From Lytechinus variegatus (Eukaryota > Echinodermata > Echinoidea > Temnopleuroida > Toxopneustidae): 64,000 bases of DNA. Shown piece after piece: positions 2,104-63,000 of the stretch. Location of the stretch: assembly GCF_018143015.1 (NCBI RefSeq), contig NC_054751.1, positions 32,936,347 to 33,000,346 of the forward strand. The letters are read 5' to 3'. The notes under the pieces are model-generated. The model saw only the letters and a program-made list of their open reading frames with translations. It did not search any database and had not been told where the DNA came from. The position numbers and the translations under genes were made by a program. Position 1 is the stretch's first letter, and the number at the start of each line of letters is the position of its first letter.

Positions 2104-5100
2104 CAAGTAAAGCTCTTGTCCATGCCCAACCTCTGGAAGGGTCTCTTAACATCTGGATTTCATCAATGACTGCTATCTCATCTAGGAAAAAATAAAGAGA
2201 GGATGATTTTCACGTACATATAAAACTGATGATCATTTTTCACAAACAAAAAAAGATGAAACTTATGAACTTTTAATGTACCAGATTGTGTGCAGCTTCT
2301 TATGGAATAATAATGTTTAATCTGGAATCAATCATTAGCTTCTTTAAAGGACAAGTCCACCCCAACAAAAACTTGATTTGAATAAAAAGAGAAAAAATCA
2401 ACAAGCATAACACTGAAAATTTCATCAAAATCAGATGTAAAATAAGAAAGTTATGGCCTTTTAAAGTTTCGCTTCATTTCACAAAACAGTTATATGCACA
2501 TCTCGGTTGGTATGCAAATGAGGAACTGATGACATCACTCACTCACTATTTCTTTTGTATTTTATTATATGAAATATTTTCATTTTCTCATCATTGTCAT
2601 GTGAAGTGAAGTTTCATTCCTCCTTGAACACGTGGAACACGTGGAATTCCATTATTTTAACATTTTGTGCTTCAGGCAAGGAGGTCCTAATTGTCAAATT
2701 TGTAAAAATTGAAATAATGTATAATTCAAACAATAAAAAACAAAACAAATAGAGAGTGAGTGACATCCTCGACTCTCTCATTTGGATGTAACTGGCTCAT
2801 TCATATAACTATTTTGTTAAAAATAAGCGAAACTTTGAAATGTCATTACTTTCTTATTTTACATCCAATTTTGATGAAATTTTCAGCATTGTGCTTGTCT
2901 GATTTTTCTCTATTGATTCAAATCAACATTTTTCTGAAGTGGACTTGACCTTTAAGATGATGCATGGAGAACTCCACCTAGATCTACTAAAATATGCCTC
3001 AAAGAAGGAAACACAACTCATGATGATCAATTCAAGGTCAAGTCAGCCTTCATATCAACAACACAATTAAACTCCTTCTTCCCCGAAACAATCACCCATT
3101 GGAACAATCTTACTACAGAAATTATCACCTCAAAAGCTCTGAAATCTTCCAAAACAAACTCCGAAGGCCCTCCCAAAACCCAAACCCCTCAAATTTTATT
3201 ACCACTCTCGTCAGCCTCCTGGAGGAGGACTTCGGGGAAAACGACTGTAGGACTTGAATTTTGACATTTGGTTTCTTTGATAGTTATTTATAGTTCAAGC
3301 TTTGGTATTTAGTTCAGCTTTGTTTACATTCTTGATGCTTTTGTTGTCATCCATTTACATTTGACTTTCAACCTACTTCTCCAGTCATTCCTTTCCTATT
3401 CAGATGTGTTCTTTCATTACATTCTCACATCTGATTCTTTTGTTCAACATTCTTAATATGTAATCATCCCAATATCTTATTCATCTCCATCCTCTCTCTC
3501 TTATTGGTTATTTTTATGAATTAGACTTTTACACTTTCAGTTGGCTCCTTCATTCTCTTTATTTTCATTGGTTGATATGCTAATTTTGTAATGCAATTAT
3601 GAGTTTTACTGAGGCAAGGAATCCCAGCAAATAAAGCAGTGCACAACCAGACTTCATCGAGTTAAGTTCAATTTTGTTTCTGTGACTTCAGAGTTAAGTT
3701 CCATCTTCTCCTCTCCGTTTGCTTCTGTTTGATGTGTATGCTTGAGCTTCTGTCCCATCTTCAGTTGAACATTTTATTTTTCCCTTAAGACTTGTATTAT
3801 TTTCAACCCCACACGACTACAAGGTACAAGGGTGCATACTTACATGGTTGGGAAACACTGGTCATCTCTACTGTACATGCCACATGAGGTGAAGGAATCG
3901 AGTCTGGGTGAGCATACTTCCTCTCCTCTCCTGTTACCAAGTCACACATGATACCCTGAAACAAGAGATGGAATAATGAAATTATACCGAATTCATATGA
4001 TAATAGGTATACTCATGACATTACAGTCCAAAGATATACCATTAAAATTCTATGAAACATACATCTTAAAGCTTTGCATTGCCAAAAATTGAATGAACGA
4101 TAGTAATGAAAGCAAGTACGAAGTGGCTTTCTATAATGAACTAGAGACAACATAAAATAAATAATGCACACATCTCTTACCATATTTTATACTTATCATC
4201 CAATGCTTTCTATGCTCCCATTTCCTCTTTTCTTTTCACTTCTTCATATTTTATATTGAACTTATAAAATTTGAAGTAGGAAGGTGGAGTTTTGGAGATG
4301 GGTTTCAACTTAACAATAGAATTTTGAACAGTTTTAGAACTTTTAATACTTCAAAATAACCCTTTTCCTTACAATATTAGGACTGATCCTGTTCATACCG
4401 ATTATCAATACCACTATAGAACACTTCATCAAAATTTTTGTCAGACAAGTTGTCAGATCTGACAACTTTCCTTGATTTTGATTGACTGAGAAGCACAGTT
4501 CTTATGGTAATTGTCAAACAATATATATTTTGTCAGATTTATCTGACAGCTAAAATAGTAACAGTCAAATTTCTTTGCTTCTGAGCAAATCAAATCACGG
4601 GCAGTTGTCAGATAAGGTCATTTGTCAGAGTATTCCATCAACTCTAATGGTTAATGAAATACTCTCCTGGTACCTTATATCATTTGGAAATTTATTCCCC
4701 GGCCCAGAGCTGATCTTAAATCTATTATCTTACCCTATCATTAGTCTTCTTGTGTACTTCACTGGCCAGCAGCTTCAGTGGACCACAGTAGACTCCAGAC
4801 TTTGCGTTGCTGAATCTCTCTAAGGCATGGTATGTCTTACCACTGTTAGTAGGTCCTGCATGGAATACAACCTTCCTTTCAATAGCTCTAGCCTCAGGGT
4901 ACCTTGGTATGGAAGCAATTAATGTAACAGGGAGATAAAAATGGTAAACACCATGTGCTTAAGCACAGCAAACATGGTAGTTTCTATACATGTAGATTGT
5001 AACAGGCTGTGAGATGGGCTCTAATGACTATCTAATCTGGAACATATAAGCAAGAACAGCTTATAGCACAATGTTACGAAGAAAATGAGTGAAAAACATC

Positions 5101-15791: not shown

Positions 15792-27955
<12,164 letters not shown>

Positions 27956-43100: not shown

Positions 43101-45617
43101 TGATGGATGGGTACTCAGGGTGCCCCCCACCAAAAAAAAAAATCATGACCAAAAAAAATTGGAAAGAAAAATAACAAAATACATAGAGCGTGAAATATAT
43201 CATTTACTGCATATTATGTCAAAATCACTAAATATTGGATATTTTGATTGAAAAAGTGGAAATTTTTGCTTGCTCGCTTCACAACTTTTTAATACATTTT
43301 ACCCGATCTGACATATCTTTATTTTGTTATGATTAGCCAAAAGTCCAATCATCAAATTTCTCATTTCTGCCATTTTGGCACAAGCCTCTTTTTGAACCCT
43401 CTACAAAAACGTCCCGTGTTCACTCAAGCATGAACAAAATTTATTTTTTTAAATGGCATTTGAAAGATAAGATCTTAGAGCATCTAATAATATCAAAATA
43501 TAGATATCATAATTTGAAACAAATCTTTTATAGACTTTTCAAAGTTGTCCCGTTTTTGTCTCACCTGCATAGTAGAGTGAGACTATAGGCGCCGCTTTTC
43601 CGGCGGCGGCGTCAACATCAAATCTTAACCTGAGATTAAGTTCTTGAAATGACATCATAACTTAGAAAGTATATGGACCTAGTTCATGAAACTTGGCCAT
43701 AAGGTTAATCAAGTATTACTGAACATCCTATTAGAGTTTCATGTCACATGACCAAGGTCAAAGGTCATTTAGGGTCAATGAACTTAGACCATGTTGGAGG
43801 AATCAACATCAAAATCTTAACCTGAGTTTAAGGGTTTAAAATGTCACCATAACTTAGAAAATATATGGACCCAGTTCATTAAACTTGGATATAAGATTAA
43901 TCAAGTATCACTGAACATCCTGCATGAGTTTCACATCACATGACCAAGGTCAAAGGTCATTTAGGGTCAATGAACTTTGGCCAAATTGGGGGTTTCTGTT
44001 GAATTCCCATCATAACTTTGAAAGTTTATGAATCTGATTCATGAAACTTAGACATAATAGTAATCAAGCATCACTGAACATTTTGTGCAAGTTTCAGGTC
44101 TCATGATTAAGGTCAAAGGTCATTTAGGGTCAATGAACTTTGGCCAAATCGGCCAAAGTAGAGTACTGGGTAATCAAGTATCACTGAACATCCTGTGCGC
44201 ATTTCAGGTCACATGACCAAGGTCAAAGGTCAATGAACTTTGGCCGAATTGGGTGTATCTGTTGAATTACCATCATAACTTTGAAAGTTTATTGATCTGA
44301 TATATGAAACTTGTACATAAGAGTAAACAAGTATCACTGAACATCCTGTGCGAGTTTCAGGTCACATGATCAAGGTCAAAGGTCATGTAAGGTCAATGAA
44401 CTTTGGCCATGTTGGGTTTTTGTTGAATAACCATCATATCTCTGTAAGTTTATTGGTCTAGTTCATAAAAAGTGGACATAAGAGTAACCATGTATCACTG
44501 AACATCTTGTGCGAGTTAGAGTAGTTTTCAAATTCAGCACGGCTGCTATATTGAACCGCGTGATGCAGGTGAGACGGCCAGAGGCATTCCACTTGTTTTC
44601 TTATACGCACTGTAGTTATGCCTGTACTGTAGTAAAGACCCTTTTTTTTTCAATATTCATGATAGATGGGTTGGTATATATATCCCATCTCCTCATTCAA
44701 TTGTAGCTGATATTAATAACCTTATGAAAATGTTTTCTATCTTGAAATGCAGGTGAATTTATGTTTCCAGAAAATAGCTGCTGATATACTAGGGATCAAA
44801 CTCACTAAAGCTGAAATCCAAAACAACACTGTATCCTTATGCTTTTAATCCATTGAGATGTGTATTTATGAGATAATTTGTATTACTTTATTCAAATGTT
44901 CTTGTACCTGCTATGGAGATTTTAATTGTTCTATTTGTTTATAATTATGATGGAGATAAGTTGATGTTGGTTGCACACATTTAGTTCAATATTAGAATAG
45001 TTTATAACCATAAAATATTTATTGAATATTGATATTTACTCAAAGCGTACCTACATGTATTAGAGCAAAATGATTTATGCAGAATGGACCCTCAGTCCTG
45101 AAGTCCATTTGAGGGATTGAAAAAAGTAATAAAGATGAAAATTATTGTGACAATGATGATGATAGTGATAATGAAGACCAAAAATGTTAATGATGATTCT
45201 AATAATGATGATCATTTTACAGCCTTCTACTGATAATGATGGTAATACGAATAATGATGACAACGATAAGGATGTATTGAGGATGATGATATTAATGTTG
45301 ATGATAATTTACAGGAAACAAATGGTAATAGATTTGGCTACTTATACAGCACAGTGGTGCATCTTCCATTGAGTTGCTTTGTATTGATGGGCATTTTCAT
45401 GGTAACTGATGTTACACAGCACAATTTTACACACAAAATTGTGCTGTGTAACATCAGTTACCGTGAAAATGCCCTTATGATGAATGTGATCATTTCCTTG
45501 ACTCTAATCTTCTCAACACAGCGAGTTGTCAAAGCTGAAGTACTCAAATCAAGAGAGGAGCCTGTACCAAGACCGATGTCATCACACACGCGGAGTTCAA
45601 TGTGTTCTGTCATGTGA
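31190..45617 (+). CDS. RAB28: RAB28, ciliary/periciliary Rab-like GTPase, seven coding exons
   Basis: Exons: 31190-31270, 36489-36585, 39635-39723, 40071-40200, 41013-41116, 44753-44830, 45522-45617; product 224 residues (human 221). Seen: [11 protein letters not shown] start, P-loop GDGASGKT (21-28), [10 protein letters not shown] switch I, the RAB28-specific [12 protein letters not shown] (69 onward; GGQ instead of AGQ), [28 protein letters not shown] (131 onward), SAKTGDS (161 onward), [10 protein letters not shown], and a C-terminal SSMCSVM. CSVM is a CaaX box; Met in the last place predicts farnesylation, as for vertebrate RAB28. RAB28 associates with cilia and, in worm work, with BBSome function. 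The final intron (44831-45521) has U12-type splice signals. Introns 1, 2, 4, 5 and 6 contain the hairpins and transposons listed separately. Confidence 0.98.
31343..31373. repeat. GC-rich perfect hairpin in RAB28 intron 1
   Basis: GCTCCGGCCCGCT, five-base loop CCGCT, then AGCGGGCCGGAGC: a 13-bp perfect stem in AT-rich surroundings, 73 bp after exon 1. The same GCTCCGGCCCGC motif recurs at about 32765. Confidence 0.85.
31438..31851. repeat. Long inverted repeat in RAB28 intron 1
   Basis: Arm 1 (about 31438-31553) and arm 2 (about 31736-31851) are inverted copies: GGGGAAAAATAAATTATGCA / TGCATAATTTATTTTTTCCC and CTGACATCGAGGCACAAACT / its inverse CAGTTTGTGCCTCGATGTCA. The ~180-bp spacer has no gene. 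Likely a MITE or fold-back remnant. Confidence 0.8.
32787..33003. mobile_element. MITE family B, copy 2
   Basis: Reads TATACCCAGTTGTTGTGTGT, GTTAGGAAATATTATAAAGA and AAACTGTCTGGACATGCG. It aligns across its length, in reverse, with 17771-17995. Located in RAB28 intron 1. Confidence 0.75.
33432..33962. repeat. Direct duplication of a ~155-bp block
   Basis: 33432-33590 and 33806-33962 share GCGCCGGATGGGTGAAGATA, AATTGGGGTGATTTTTCTTC and TTTTAGCTGCATGTTCCATG with few differences. Each copy contains a good acceptor-like TTCTTTTTAG, but the sequence after it does not match RAB28. Confidence 0.8.
34735..36140. repeat. Direct repeat pair (34735-34873 and 36000-36140)
   Basis: Both copies read AACGCTTAATCTAC … TCTGATCATTAAT … ATATGAAACTCGTCCTGTCA … CTTGTAAAGAGGCAGCCACA. 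They are ~140 bp each, same orientation, 1.27 kb apart in RAB28 intron 1, possibly the LTR-like ends of a lost element or a local duplication. Confidence 0.75.
37780..38105. repeat. G/C-tract repeat, copy 2
   Basis: Repeating AAAAAGGGGTTATCAACC-like and CAGGACCCCCC units, ending CCCCCCGCTTCCGCTGCC; inverse of the sequence at 29520-29716. Confidence 0.5.
38191..38865. mobile_element. MITE family A, one full (38191-38655) and one partial copy
   Basis: AGGTCAAGTCCACCTCAG at the left and GGTGGACTTATTCTTTAAAG at the right are inverted ends. A second partial copy begins directly after it (GGCGAGTCCACCTCATG) and fades near a G-tract at 38810. Confidence 0.8.
40684..40864. mobile_element. Near-perfect 84-bp-arm hairpin (MITE-like) in RAB28 intron 4
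   Basis: The arms 40684-40767 and 40781-40864 pair with about three mismatches around a 13-base loop. Outer ends AGTGTAGTAGGTTTCAC / GTGAAACCTACTACACT. The long open frame reported across it is an artefact that runs into exon 5. Confidence 0.93.
41403..41745. mobile_element. Small element with GTCTCGCCCA…TGGGCGAGAC ends
   Basis: GTCTCGCCCACCGGAGGTGA at the left and GTGGGCGAGACACAAGAT at the right are inverted ends. The interior (AACTCCACAACTGTAAGATG, AGGTCACATGGTAACATCAA) has the same style as the GTCTCACCTGC family at 43553-44600 and is probably a distant relative. Confidence 0.6.
42543..42708. mobile_element. Palindromic MITE family C, copy 2
   Basis: GCCTGTTGCATAAAAATTTT … AAATTTATGCAACGGGTCC with inner TACCTGAGAAAACTCAGG arms; same family as 25207-25365. 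Inserted in the left arm of the 42447-44612 element. Confidence 0.82.
43553..44600. mobile_element. GTCTCACCTGC element carrying DR1 motifs, copy 1
   Basis: Ends TTTTTGTCTCACCTGCAT and GCAGGTGAGACGGCCAGAGG; interior built of diverged ~130-180-bp tandem units, each with CATAACTT.GAAAGT, ATGAAACTTGG, TCACTGAACATCCTG and GGTCAAAGGTCA. Exact AGGTCAAAGGTCA occurs at 43755, 43947, 44110, 44220 and 44373. A full inverse copy is at 60109-61378 and a partial one at 46929-47455. No ORF. Confidence 0.85.
44831..45521 (+). other. U12-type (minor spliceosome) intron, last intron of RAB28
   Basis: The donor right after exon 6 is GTATCCTT, the exact minor-spliceosome 5' consensus. The 3' side has TTCCTTGAC at 45494-45502, a full match to the U12 branch-site consensus TTCCTTRAY, with the presumed branch A (45501) 20 nt before the AG (45520-45521). 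No good polypyrimidine tract separates branch site and AG. The exon join gives [15 protein letters not shown], as in vertebrate RAB28. Confidence 0.88.
45389..45474. repeat. 40-bp-arm hairpin next to the U12 branch site
   Basis: Arms 45389-45428 and 45435-45474 pair with one mismatch around ACACAC. It ends 20 bases before the U12 branch site of RAB28. Size and near-perfect stem resemble both a tiny MITE and a microRNA precursor; nothing in the sequence decides between them. Confidence 0.93.
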
Positions 45618-56154: not shown

Positions 56155-59034
56155 TTATTGACTGAGTAAAGTAGTCACTTGGACTCTTCCATCCATTGAT
56201 CCACTCAAGCATACTCCGGTGTTAAGTGTTGTACACCAGTCAACACTTACAACAGGTGTTCGGTGTCCAAGGATGGTCAAAGTCCGTAACATGCCTTTCT
56301 CTTTGTTCAGCTGAGAGAGAGAGTGAGAGAAAAATATTGATGGTTAGAATCTACAACCCCAAACAGCTAATCGGGTGATAATCACTGCTACATGCATTCT
56401 CTGACCAAGTTTAAAGTTGATCCGTTAACAATTTTATAGTTAACAAGGACAGAAATGGGATAGACAGACGACCCGATAACATAATCCCTCAAGCAACCTT
56501 CAATGGGTGGAGGCATTAAAAAACACCTGAATCTCAGAACAAGCATCTCCTCTCAGTCCCACTCACTACCAGCATTTATATGTCTACTCTGCCCCAGACA
56601 CTCCCTGATGATGATCTGACTAGTGAACCATCTTCTTCACACTCATAAGATTTGGTAATATGAGAAATTATGACTGCCCTACCATTAACAATACTTCCAT
56701 TACCATCAAAACCATTTTCATCACCACTATCATCTACTACTAATACTACTACCATCATCATCTTCCTACTGCCATCACCACTATCATCACCATCGACACA
56801 ACTACCACCACCACAACTGCTATCATTCTCATCCTACCACCACCACTACCTAGTCACCTACTACATTACCATCAGAGCCCTTCCACTGTATACTCTTGCT
56901 TGGTCCACAATCGCATGGCCCATAAGCACTGGGTCGAATTGACAGTTAGTCAAACCTCAATTGGTGCAACTTCATTTGTTTTGTTTTTAATTTCCACTTG
57001 ATCTCATAGACAGTTCATTCAATATCCAACTTGGCTCACCATATTTTGTATTTAGTCATATTTTGATAACTTTCAATTCTGCTAAAACTGAAAACTTGGC
57101 CATATAGTAATAAGAACAAATGACAAGAAACCTAAATATTCATTAGACTAGCAATCAGACTAAAATACCAGTTAGACATAATGTAAGATGAACCAAAAAT
57201 ATTTAGCCTGAATAAAGATAACCCATCTTAAAACTAGAGTACACAAACCTCAATCACTACCATCATCTCCATGACCACAACTATCACAACCATCCGTACA
57301 ATCACCACCAGCATCACCATCCCCATAATCACCACCGCCACTACCACCATCACCACACTACCGCCACCGCCACTACCACCATCACCAACCCCACCATCAC
57401 CACCACCATTACTACCACCACCACCACCATCACCACTCCCATTACTACCACCACCATCACCAACCCCACCATCACCACCATCACTACCACCACCACCACA
57501 ACCATCACTACCACCACCATCACCAACCCCACCACCATCACCAACATTACCACCATCACCACTACCACCATCACCACCATCACCAACCCCACCATCACCA
57601 CCACTACCACCACCATTACCACCACCATCACCACCACTACCACCACCACCAACATCACCACAATCACTACCACCACCATCACTACCACCACCACCACCAT
57701 CAACACCATCACCACCATCACCACTGCAGCCACCCCCACCATTTTCATCATCATCAATACCCATCGCAACCTACCATCTACTACTATACTCTTTCCTTTC
57801 ATTACTTACCTTGTATATAACCCCACCATGGGGAGCGCAGGTCAGTACATAGTTCCCGCTGCTGTCAAAAGCAAAGAGTTTTCCCCTTGGGTTTTGCTGC
57901 TGCCGGTACCCACCGAATCCTGATACCACAAACGGACCAGTAGCTCCATCATGAATAGGCATATCAAGAAGCTTCTGACCTACCTTGTGTATACTCCATT
58001 CAGTAAACTATAGGCATGAAAATCAAATAAATACAGATTAGTTTTTTTTTTAATCATCACAAGGGGGACTTTGTTTCTTTATAAAAAAGAAATTATGTAC
58101 AATAATATTGTACATAATTTCTTTTTTATAAAGAAACAAAGTCCCCCTTGTGATGATAAAAAAATATACTAAACAAAAAACAACAAAAACATGCAATCAT
58201 GTCCTATAGCCAAATACTTATTGGTATTATTTGGTAATAACCTCCATACCTATACTGATACAGAGCTGCCAAGTAATACTGATTTTCGGTATATTGATGG
58301 TTTCATATGAAGGACTGATTTCTAAAATGTTCAGTATTATGTGTTTGTTCTATGGTTATTCCTTTAAAAAATACTGATTCCCTCACCAAAATACTAATTT
58401 TCACCTTTTGAAATGCTGAAATTTTCTTGTTTAGGGTGGCAGCTCTGCTGAAAATATAACAAATACAATGTCCACAATGCAAAATCAAAATGACTGATAC
58501 AGCTGCTAATTCAACTGCAATCCTTTAGTTCAGAGAGCAATGACCAGCTTTATAAGCCAATCAATCAGGAGCGCAATTTCATCAACATTTTCATCTGACA
58601 AGTTGTCGGATCTCACAACATTCCTTGATTTTGATTGGCCGAGAAGCATGGTTACTATGGTGACTGTCGGACAAAACAGGACATGCAGGATAAAACGTCT
58701 TGACAATTCCTTTCATGAAACGCTCCCCAGGTATTTCATCAAGATATCTACAATGTTGTGATAATGACACAACTGTACCGCTACAAACTCTTCTGGTAGG
58801 TAAGGTCTTCTTGTGTTGGGCTGAGCCACTCATGTGGTCTGACTGCTAGGTGCTCTTGGGCACAGTGTATGGTGAACCTTAAATATTTAATACCACTTTA
58901 GATAATCTACTCTAAAAATTCCACACACACACACATATATCATAAAGTTTCACGTATTGGCTTCTCTAAGGGTAACAAAATATGCTGAAGATAAATGGTA
59001 ATGCTTTCAATGCCAATATGGTTTTTATTTATTT

Positions 59035-59086
<52 letters not shown>

Positions 59087-59980
59087 AAATAAATAAAAAC
59101 CAGTTGTATATATATATATATATATATATAAATGTGTAAAGTTATACATGTACAACAGCTTTTGGCAACTCTTTTTTATTTAAATATTGTAAGAAATGGA
59201 TGAAGAGAACAATGGTAGGCGTAGCTTAAATCAAGGTTCCCCAGAGCTATCTACCCTTTGGAAAAATTGGTGATGCCGAAAAAATGTCTCTGCCGGGAAT
59301 CGAACCCGGGCCCCCAGCTTTGAACGCCGGTGCCTTAACCACTAGACCACAGAGACGGTTAGTAGCTAGGGCGAGCCCGATCCGATTGACCGTCAGATAG
59401 ACAGATTTTCGACACTATACCAATTATATATTCCTTTGTCGGGTGAGCTGGGGGCCCGGGTTCGATTCCCGGCAGAGACATTTTTTCGGCATCACCAATT
59501 TTTCCAAAGGGTAGATAGCTCTGGGGAACCTTGATTTAAGCTACGCCTACCATTGTTCTCTTCATCCATTTCTTACAATATTTAAATAAAAAAGAGTTGC
59601 CAAAAGCTGTTGTACATGTATAACTTTACACATTTGTATTTCTTCTCCCATATGTGTACTGTATCGAAGCAATAGCTTTGATCCAGCTGAGGCATGGCGG
59701 CTTGTCATTGTTCAAAACTCACCTTCACCCGACAAAGGAATATATAATTGGTATAGTGTCGAAAATCTGTCTATCTGACGGTCAATCGGATCGGGCTCGC
59801 CCTAGCTACTAACCGTCTCTGTGGTCTAGTGGTTAAGGCACCGGCGTTCAAAGCTGGGGGCCCGGGTTCGATTCCCGGCAGAGACATTTTTTCGGCATCA
59901 CCAATTTTTCCAAAGGGTAGATAGCTCTGGGGAACCTTGATTTAAGCTACGCCTACCATTGTTCTCTTCATCCATTTCTT

Positions 59981-60016
<36 letters not shown>

Positions 60017-63000
60017 ACTTTCATTTCATCCAAAAGAAATTTTTTTATTTTCGAAAATGTTCATTCATCCATTTAGAGGACAAGTCCACCCAGACAAAAA
60101 GTTGATAACAAGTGGAATGCCTCTGGCCGTCTCACCTGCATCACGCGGTTCAATATAGCAGCAGTGCTGACTTTGCATACTACTCTAACTCGCACAAGAT
60201 GTTCAGTGATACATGGTTACTCTTACGTCCTCTTTTTATGAACTAGACCAATAAACTTACAGAGATATGATGGTTATTCAACAAAAAACCCCAACATGGC
60301 CAAAGTTCATTGACCTTACATGACCTTTGACCTTGATCATGTGACCTGAAACTGGAACAGGATGTTCAGTGATACTTGATTACTCTTATGTACAAGTTTC
60401 ATGAATCAGATCCATAAACTTTCAAAGTTATGATGGTAATTCAACAGATACACCCAATTCGGCTAAAGTTCATTGACCTTTGACCTTGGACAAGTGACCT
60501 GAAACACGCACAGGATGTTCAGTGATACTTGATTACTCTAATGTCCAAGTTTAACGAACTAGACCAATAAACTTTCAAAGTTATGATGGTAATTCAACAG
60601 ATACCCCCGATTCGGCCAAAGTTCATTGACCCTAAATGACCTTTGACCTTAATCATGAGACCTGAAACTTGCACAAAATGTTCAGTGATGCTTAATTACT
60701 ATTATGTCCAAGTTTAATGAATCAGATCCATAAACTTTCAAAGTTATGATGGGAATTCAACAGATATCCCCAAATCGGCCAAAGTTCATTGACCCTAAAT
60801 GACCTTTGACCTTGATCATGTGACCTGAAACTTGCACAAAATGTTCAGTGATGCTTGATTACTATTATGTCCAAGTTTCATGAATCAGATCCATAAACTT
60901 TCAAAGTTATGACGGGAATTCAACAGATATCCCTAATTCGTCCAAAGTTCATTGACCCTAAATGACCTTTGACCTTGGTCATGTGATGTGAAACTCATGC
61001 AGGATGTTCATTGATACTTGATTAACCTCATGTCCAAGTTTCATGAACTAGGTCCATATATTTTCTAAGTTATGATGACATTTCAAAAACTTAACCTCAG
61101 GTTAAGATTTCGATGTTGATTCCTCCAACATGGTCTAAGTTCATTGACCCTAAATGACCTTTGACCTTGGTCATGTGACATGAAACTCTAATAGGATGTT
61201 CAGTAATACTTGATTAACCTTATGGCCAAGTTTTATTAACTAGGTCCATATACTTTCTAAGTTATGATGTCATTTCAAAAACTTAACCTCAGGTTAAGAT
61301 TTGATGTTGACGCCGCCGCCGCCGCCGTCGGAAAAGCGGCGCCTATAGTCTCACTTTGCTTCGCAGGTGAGACAAAAATTGGACGTAAAATAAGTTGGTT
61401 ATGACATTTTGAAGCTTCCCTTCATTTCACAAAAGTTATACAGCGCGTCCCCAAAAAATGTCCCTCTGACATAGAACTAAATTAATTCTAAAATGTGGTA
61501 GGATTCTTAAATAAATGTTCATGAGTAGAAAGCTCATTTCATGTTCTAACTTTTATGAAAATTTCATTGGTTGCACTTCAGTGATTTTGAATACACACTC
61601 TGTTACGTAACAGTGGTGCATTTTAGCTCATTCCAAGTTTGCAGCATTGATGCATTTCTTCATTGTCTATGGCATGTTAACCCCCATTCTTACATCCATG
61701 ATCTGAGCAGGGATAATTCCCTAATCATATCTAGGCTCATCAAATCATAAACTTGAGCATGTTCAGAAGGACAAGAAACATAAACAATTAAGTTTGTTTG
61801 ATGATTGATAAGGGGAATCAGTGCACCAACTTGAAAGAAAATGTGAATGATGGATGAGTAAAATAAGCTGAAAAGGGGGAATCAACAAGTTAATCACCTT
61901 TTGCAAAAAGGAACTATACCAAAGAAAATTTTGACTTTTTTCTTTTAAGAAGTTACAGTTGCTAATGAACTAAAAAAAAGTAATGAAAGCAAAAATGCAG
62001 TATTGTTGGAATTATGCATGAAACAGACATGACCCATTGTCTCAATCATTGTGCATCTCCCGTTTATCAAACATGAAATGAACTGTCAAATACTGTTTTT
62101 GCCCTTCTGAACATGCTCAAGGTTGTGATTTGATGAGCCTGGTTAGATCATGGAGATTTCCCTGGTCAGATCAGGGAATTCCTTGGTCAGAACAAGGAGA
62201 TAGAGGTGATATCTCCTTGGTCAGAATGGTCAAAGGGGGTTGATATGCAAGAAAGTGCAGAACAGAAAGCAGTGTTGCATGCATATAAACTTGGAATGGG
62301 TTGAAAAGCACCACTGTTACATAATAGGCTGTGTATTCAAAACCACTGAAGCGAGACCAATGAAATTTTTATAGAATCTAGAACATGAGATGGGCTTCCT
62401 ATATCTATACATTTCATTGAGAATAATTTTTATTTGTGGAAGTTATTAAACAGCATATCAGAGGGACATTTTTGGGGGGATGAGCTGTATGCACATCCTG
62501 GTCGGTATGATGGGACTGATGACATTACCCACTCACTATTCCTTCTGTATTTTATTGAAATATTTCAATTTTCTCCTTATTATCCTGAACATGTGGAATC
62601 ACCATTGTTTGACCATTTTGTGGTTCAACTAAAAGTGACCTAATTGTCAAATCTGTGAAAATTGAAATATTTTTTAATTCTAACAATAAAACAAAAGAAA
62701 TAGTGAGTGACATCATCAACTCTCTCAATTGCATATCACTGAGTTGTGCATATAATTGTTTTGTAAAAAATAAGTGAAACTTTAAAATATCATAACTTTC
62801 TTATTTTACATCCAATTGTGATGAAATTTTTAGCATTATTCTTGTTTAATATATCTCTATTGATTCAAATCAACTTTCTTTCTGGGGTGAAGTTGTCCTT
62901 TATTACAAAGGGTGGAACAGACGTTACCTTTCCATCTGATCCCATACTATATACAGATGTTTCAGCAGGACTGAACTGAGCTGCATAAACCTGACCTTGA

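Follow-up and report, generated by a model that had tools for sequence, protein, structure and literature searches.

An insertion with two identical tRNA genes of anticodon UCA was characterised in the window, the whole 64,000-nucleotide stretch of Lytechinus variegatus DNA that was analysed. It is probably (at roughly 60%) a member of a non-autonomous, retroelement-like family that is abundant in the genome and has a unit of about 400–430 bp with an intact tRNA-UCA gene. If this is true, a mobile element has multiplied stop-reading tRNA genes while keeping both the tRNA and its anticodon intact, and the question is raised how a genome tolerates many apparent suppressor tRNA genes, which could be not transcribed, not charged, or used.

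The tRNA genes and the insertion in the window

A preliminary description made from the sequence alone had proposed two intact 72-nt tRNA genes at 59285..59886, and ARAGORN and Rfam upheld both with exact coordinates and strands (Table 1; E 9.8e-11 for each, with a gathering score of 29 for RF00005). The two genes are identical at 72/72 nucleotides. In the ARAGORN cloverleaf, stems of 7, 4, 5 and 5 bp surround a variable region of 4 nt, the discriminator is A73, and the anticodon loop GTTCAAA places TCA at positions 34–36 in both genes, which confirms the UCA register proposed earlier. Minimum-energy folding of the tRNA RNA alone gave the acceptor, anticodon and T helices, with the D arm absent (z −2.0). 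Six T follow at once 3' of each tRNA, as had been described, which would be a Pol III-type terminator; the A and B boxes of the right tRNA were placed by consensus and are to be read as presumed positions.

The surroundings of the genes had been described as an inverted repeat. Inverted arms are indeed present at 99% identity, and the repeat finder reported two pairs of them (59177–59446 with 59725–59994, 270 nt, 99%; 59126–59319 with 59446–59639, 194 nt, 99%). However, the inversion is not symmetric as a palindrome would be; two arms of a tandem array stand head-to-head and meet at a single point. The right arm starts inside a tRNA, and thus a third, truncated tRNA gene is found there. A direct repeat of 143 nt with a spacing of 406 also lies within the insertion. 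The earlier statement that about 250 bp of flank was copied along with the tRNA was right about the copying but too modest about the length, as the copied stretch comprises the entire insertion of 406-bp tandem units. No open reading frame of at least 100 aa is listed within 59126–59994.

Table 1. Features of the two-armed insertion and its tRNA genes, in window coordinates.
Feature	Position	Strand	Basis
Two-armed head-to-head insertion of 406-bp tandem units, whole	59126–59994		cyclic-unit tiling, 99.6–99.7%; repeats
Left arm (unit position 159 at the outward end, 245 on the 5' side)	59126–59446	minus	tiling
Right arm, start at unit position 372 (inside tRNA), outward end at position 108	59446–59994	plus	tiling
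Head-to-head junction of the arms	59446		repeat finder, tiling
Reference 406-bp unit (334-bp spacer + tRNA)	59481–59886	plus	
tRNA gene, anticodon UCA (left)	59285–59356	minus	ARAGORN; Rfam RF00005, 60.9 bits
tRNA gene, anticodon UCA (right)	59815–59886	plus	ARAGORN; Rfam RF00005, 60.9 bits
Truncated third tRNA, 3' part only	59446–59480	plus	direct repeat 59446/59852, spacing 406
A-box region, right tRNA (tRNA positions 8–19)	59822–59833	plus	consensus on window sequence
B-box region GGTTCGATTCC, right tRNA (tRNA positions 52–62)	59866–59876	plus	consensus on window sequence
T6, presumed Pol III-type terminator, left tRNA	59279–59284	minus	sequence
T6, presumed Pol III-type terminator, right tRNA	59887–59892	plus	sequence
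(TA)n run at left outer end	59107–59130		
(TA)n run at right outer end	59984–60014		

Dispersal and subfamilies

The genome searched comprised 869,567,369 bases in 33 contigs. The bare 72-nt tRNA, used as a probe, gave no match, the window's own copy included; very common words are skipped in this search. With a 296-nt probe (the tRNA and part of both flanks), 1,772 first-look candidates were obtained, and the best 40 of these, which were scored, all (40/40) showed 100% identity over the full 296 nt. The scored matches lie on contigs C1–C5, many of them at steps of 406 bp. The window's own copy, on contig C12, is absent from the best 40 of 1,772, so further perfect copies exist. An array of 13 kb on C4 (6.292–6.305 Mb) has steps of 406 bp or near multiples inside each block and an anatomy like that of the window.

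A diverged probe (L052:188–656) gave 1,833 candidates, and scoring of the best 40 yielded 147 rows with 84–100% identity, which represent a second subfamily with a period of 399 bp in 40 clusters on 16 contigs. From a third probe (L063), 1,988 candidates were obtained, the best 40 of which gave at least 175 matches and a third subfamily with a period of about 428 bp. At least three subfamilies of the unit, with periods of about 406, 399 and 428 bp, are therefore present on many contigs; beyond the best 40 for each probe the candidates are unscored, and the three candidate totals probably overlap.

Six loci of 1.8–1.9 kb each (L050–L055) were fetched together with the edges and the centre of the C4 array (L056–L058), and all share the window's plan of arms and ends. 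The arms can exceed one unit: in L055 the longest has 994 bp, and in the C4 array they extend over several kb. Unequal exchange after insertion may have enlarged some arrays. These dispersed and tandem copies, with their one shared anatomy, give strong support to the idea that tRNA and flank move together as a unit.

Ends and orientation of the insertions

Seventeen ends on the 3' side of the tRNA were read in the window and in L050–L056 and L058, and 17/17 adjoin a TA-rich or CA/TA microsatellite, the runs being short at L054. Their unit positions fall at 101–108 (eight ends), 152–159 (eight ends) and 48 (one end). In four end pieces of the third subfamily the unit likewise gives way to (TA)n, directly or after a (CA)n stretch, which brings the 3'-side ends at a (TA)n or (CA)n microsatellite to 21/21. 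In control DNA, (TA)6+ runs made up 304 of 254,000 bases (0.12%). The four outward 5'-side ends that were read lie at unit positions 308, 256, 387 and 404, all different, and all at or near TA runs. The presence of TA runs at the 5'-side ends too suggests that the microsatellite predated the insertion. Beyond the bordering microsatellites, the sequence differs from place to place among the fetched loci.

A tally of the 90 partial rows listed in the third-probe search agreed with the two preferred positions. In it, 43 of 45 3'-type ends fell into two short bins (query positions 68–75 and 123–132; the remaining two at 111 and 245), whereas the 37 5'-type starts were scattered along the unit, with at most eight in any two bins of equal size; eight rows were cut on both sides. 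The same tally on 79 of the 90 rows placed 43/44 3'-type ends in the two bins. Short matches are absent among the third-probe matches listed, so ends near the query start are under-counted in both tallies.

Orientation was followed in the 147 rows of the second-probe search, where 35 strand switches were found. Thirty-two of them run minus-then-plus, that is head-to-head with the tRNA sense pointing outward, and three run plus-then-minus. Among the minus-then-plus switches, 26/32 have rows within 22 nt of each other and 6/32 have gaps of 34–107 nt. The plus-then-minus switches span 49, 77 and 498 bp, and in the one that was read (L052) a CA repeat separates the two orientations. One minus-then-plus switch was present in 32/40 clusters.

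Proposed mechanism

Outward 3' ends that cluster at sites of microhomology to the target, together with 5' ends that scatter and arms joined head-to-head, fit two-sided priming of reverse transcription on a sense RNA. In such a process, a sense RNA covering several units would be transcribed either across an array, by read-through, or off a circular template. The arms longer than one unit imply an RNA that spans several units or is copied round a circle, and as the T6 after the tRNA should stop Pol III short of a full unit, a multi-unit RNA would need another promoter or read-through. Where a (TA)n or (CA)n tract is broken or nicked, its free 3' ends would then anneal to one of two AT/CA-rich parts of the RNA (around unit positions 108 and 159) and serve as primers for a reverse transcriptase provided in trans. 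What is seen of this step is the preference of the 3'-side ends for two positions and their microsatellite borders. The self-complementarity of (TA)n allows each of the broken ends to act as a primer, and at the same positions. The two cDNAs would stop at random phases and be joined head-to-head; the junctions are directly seen. In the copies read, the tRNA gene is retained together with its anticodon, and it probably provides a Pol III promoter and/or a structured RNA needed by the element. If true, the two preferred 3' priming sites, the head-to-head arms and the microsatellite target together would be a clear natural record of two-sided priming.

Several findings count against parts of this scheme. 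The family could be linked to no reverse transcriptase and no partner element, which speaks against the retrotransposition route, and neither a hammerhead core nor a credible ribozyme match that would account for a circular RNA was found in the 406-bp unit or in window positions 59000–60100. Against two-sided priming stand the 8/40 clusters without a strand switch and the position of the four 5'-type ends at or near TA runs.

The main rival is a DNA-based spread, in which microhomology-driven repair fills a broken (TA)n with a copy of array DNA or of a small DNA circle, with no reverse transcription involved. Microsatellites are plausible break sites, the microhomologies ATAT and CACA occur at the preferred ends, some arms are array-like in length, and the 5'-type end at unit position 256 sits just beside an AT-rich stretch of the unit. 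However, a double-stranded template should yield preferred ends of both polarities, and clustering is confined to the 3' type (43/45 among the rows listed), the 5' type being scattered. Moreover, the AT-rich stretch AATATATAATT near unit position 260–270 is the 3'-type end in 0/17 of the ends read. This explanation thus appears somewhat unlikely.

Folding of the unit RNA was compared with shuffled sequences. The 406-nt sense RNA was more stable than its shuffled versions, at z −5.1 with 100 shuffles and, with 60 shuffles, −4.8 as a circle and −6.1 as a linear molecule; the sense RNA of the 399-nt subfamily gave −5.1 and −4.7. The antisense of the 406-nt unit was weaker than the sense but not flat (−4.0 circular, −2.6 linear), and that of the 399-nt unit gave −2.0 (linear only). 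For the spacer alone, values of −2.1 and −2.8 were obtained. In the predicted unit folds, the tRNA part pairs partly with the preceding spacer and does not form the full cloverleaf. Among four sequences, 1/112 pairs of the unit fold showed a two-sided change, the four aligned units being too alike for covariation to be informative.

Conservation and possible decoding role of the tRNA

It had also been suggested that this might be a tRNA-derived repeat whose anticodon drifted while its promoters stayed intact. The copies read do not support this: the anticodon was TCA in 26/26 ARAGORN calls from the window and the fetched copies of three subfamilies, so it has not drifted there, and no part of the unit diverges less than the tRNA. 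Between subfamilies 1 and 2, the tRNA has 0/72 differences and the spacer 19/325 plus five indels (Fisher p 0.03). With the A and B boxes left aside, the comparison becomes 0/49 and non-significant (p 0.15), and a pure promoter constraint may therefore also account for it. The third subfamily differs at 1/72 tRNA positions versus 22/315 spacer positions. Over the fetched copies, whose selection depended in part on a match covering the tRNA, 6/1538 tRNA and 107/7196 spacer positions differ (p 1.6e-4).

The preliminary description had held the variable loop to be too short for a tRNA-Sec, and the measured 4 nt agree. A tRNA-Sec has about 90 nt, a long variable arm and G73, according to the text available from PMC5330540. 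Two tRNA-Sec loci were found elsewhere in the genome (76.9 bits, above the Rfam cut-off of 47), one of which was read and holds an 87-nt tRNA-Sec(UCA) with G73. With its 72 nt, short variable region and A73, and with tRNA-Sec present elsewhere, the tRNA of the element was rejected as a tRNA-Sec gene or pseudogene. As a separate observation, eleven equal weak matches to the tRNA-Sec model (42.5 bits, below the cut-off) lie at C1:39134615–39167154 in steps of about 2–6 kb, and perhaps form an array of another long-arm tRNA gene.

Judged by the identity table in an excerpt of PMC9976931, the tRNA matches eukaryotic tRNA-Trp at A73, G1-C72, C35 and A36, with U34 in place of C34; C35, A36, A38 and U20/U20a, by the numbering used here, are among the entries for eukaryotic tRNA-Arg, and the tRNA-Gly entries C36, C2-G71 and G3-C70 are absent. 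In an alignment to ten reference tRNAs and one fetched Lys gene, Glu-CTC was closest (59/76 columns, score 34), which is a lead only, and Gly-TCC came second by score (52/74 columns, score 29). A phage or viral relative was rejected, as only weak phage tRNA matches were seen (four records) and a 21-nt piece of the sequence had no exact match in viral contigs.

An intact tRNA fold with a UCA anticodon is what makes the gene a candidate opal suppressor, and a decoding role is possible as far as the sequence goes. It might then be asked whether this is a real nuclear UGA-decoding tRNA family, suppressor or regulatory, that was amplified for use by the host. The intact fold, boxes and terminator, the invariant TCA, the lower divergence of the tRNA than of the spacer and the presence of some tRNA-Trp and tRNA-Arg identity entries would all be in line with such a family. 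However, the anatomy of the insertions is that of a mobile repeat, the conservation outside the A and B boxes is non-significant when taken alone, and base 34 is U where tRNA-Trp has C. In addition, in two fetched copies (L050, L052) the tRNA has lost 1 nt or contains mispairs. Amplification for host use is thus quite improbable.

Comparison with known elements

The proposed retroelement-like family shares single traits with several known systems. In a tRNA-derived SINE, a tRNA with A and B boxes stands in a non-coding dispersed repeat, and transcription reads through the tRNA into the body. The tRNA-related head with an internal promoter is shared, whereas here the T6 follows at once after the tRNA, also in subfamilies 2 and 3 as far as their copies were fetched, and complete units are repeated several times in tandem. 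Penelope-like elements make tandem and partly inverted insertions with 5' truncation. In contrast to them, the present family has no protein (reverse transcriptase and GIY-YIG) and no pseudo-LTR, its unit being 406 bp without a frame of at least 100 aa; it may be a non-autonomous derivative of such an element. Twin priming of LINEs uses two outward 3' priming sites and leads to a head-to-head inversion. Here, by comparison, the same two sites would serve for priming on either side, and the inversion is found in 32/40 clusters.

Metazoan non-LTR retrozymes are described, in the text available from PMC7229834 (Cervera and de la Pena 2020), as tandem repeats of 150–450 bp, from dimers to large multimers, in up to thousands of copies, which are non-coding and give a self-paired RNA. 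Size, tandem layout, copy number and non-coding nature are held in common as far as that text goes, and short, dispersed non-coding units in tandem are indeed what the tRNA-UCA family consists of. Retrozymes are, however, defined by a (type I) hammerhead ribozyme in the portions available from PMC7229834 and the review PMC7761336, whereas each unit here has an intact tRNA gene and no hammerhead was found. The core CTGANGA is absent from both strands of the doubled 406-bp unit, and the 34 Rfam rows that window positions 59000–60100 gave at E ≤ 10 contain no hammerhead; a RAGATH-22 row over AT repeats reached 21.8 bits (cut-off 120.3). A hammerhead retrozyme was rejected, as no ribozyme was found in the unit or in this part of the window. 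In the available text of PMC7229834, the words 'microsatellite', 'inverted' and 'target site' have zero occurrences.

Helenus is a non-autonomous LTR element with a tRNA-derived promoter that can inflate tRNA counts, and it accounts for 245/245 'tRNA-Sup-CTA' predictions in Cronartium ribicola (Kojima 2024, PMC10886601, available passages). A tRNA-like gene inside a non-autonomous mobile element is common to both. By the same passages, Helenus has LTRs, a primer-binding site and duplications of 4–6 bp, whereas tandem units, head-to-head arms and microsatellite borders are found here. At the window and the fetched loci no LTR pair was seen, and target-site duplications are unreadable inside the (TA)n borders. 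Caution is advised, as what is counted as a tRNA gene in such genomes, or called 'Sec' or 'Sup', can be a copy of a mobile element.

Since neither retrozymes nor Helenus fit, the family was filed as a new variant of non-autonomous retroelement. A literature search, which covered few subscription papers, yielded no paper recognised as describing this tRNA-UCA repeat family. Going further, one could speculate about a new type of non-coding mobile element, with a rod-like RNA of unit or multi-unit length, an embedded tRNA gene in place of the ribozyme and two-sided priming at broken microsatellites. Through its insertions, perhaps more than a thousand intact tRNA genes for decoding UGA would have been seeded, which are then silenced or else form a standing, genome-wide potential for read-through. 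We regard this extended proposal as unlikely.

Other tRNA loci and repeats

Tandem arrays of tRNA-Lys(TTT) genes with a spacing of about 470 bp occur in the same genome (L037–L040; C4:23.485–23.505 and 26.060–26.080 Mb), and one of them is arranged in two opposite blocks. Their existence would allow the UCA genes to be an ordinary tandem tRNA gene cluster that was rearranged. This was already disfavoured, and is highly improbable: the Lys arrays, which served as a control, have zero (TA)6+ runs in the 40 kb read, and the UCA unit recurs with a single anatomy in dozens of distinct locations spread over many contigs. A DNA transposon or foldback (MITE-like) element with terminal inverted repeats is scarcely credible, for although the window has inverted arms and a AGTTGTATATA-like similarity of both outer flanks, arm length and phase vary by site, arms are sometimes absent and the microsatellite is the sole outer sequence seen in common among the fetched loci; tiling of the window and these loci showed no constant terminal inverted repeats, and a symmetric palindrome or MITE was rejected on this basis.

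Apart from the family, two tRNA-like stretches about 270 bp apart (L032:4663–4733 and 5001–5073) look like SINE heads, the first with 72% identity to the window tRNA. Just left of the insertion, window positions 59019–59102 form a perfect 84-bp palindrome with 42-nt arms around a (TA)n core, and tandem repeats of ~160–190 bp with TTGACCTTTGACCTTG-like or reverse stretches lie at 60187–61310 and 43612–44517. A minisatellite of 42 bp + 26 bp is present twice in the window, inverted and about 2.7 kb apart (23023–23354 and 25868–26231). A frame matching a small GTPase of the Ras superfamily, probably one exon, was found at 26696–27067 on the plus strand (Pfam Ras, 61.7 bits), and a long CAC/ACC-rich microsatellite at 57222–57923 is open in several frames.
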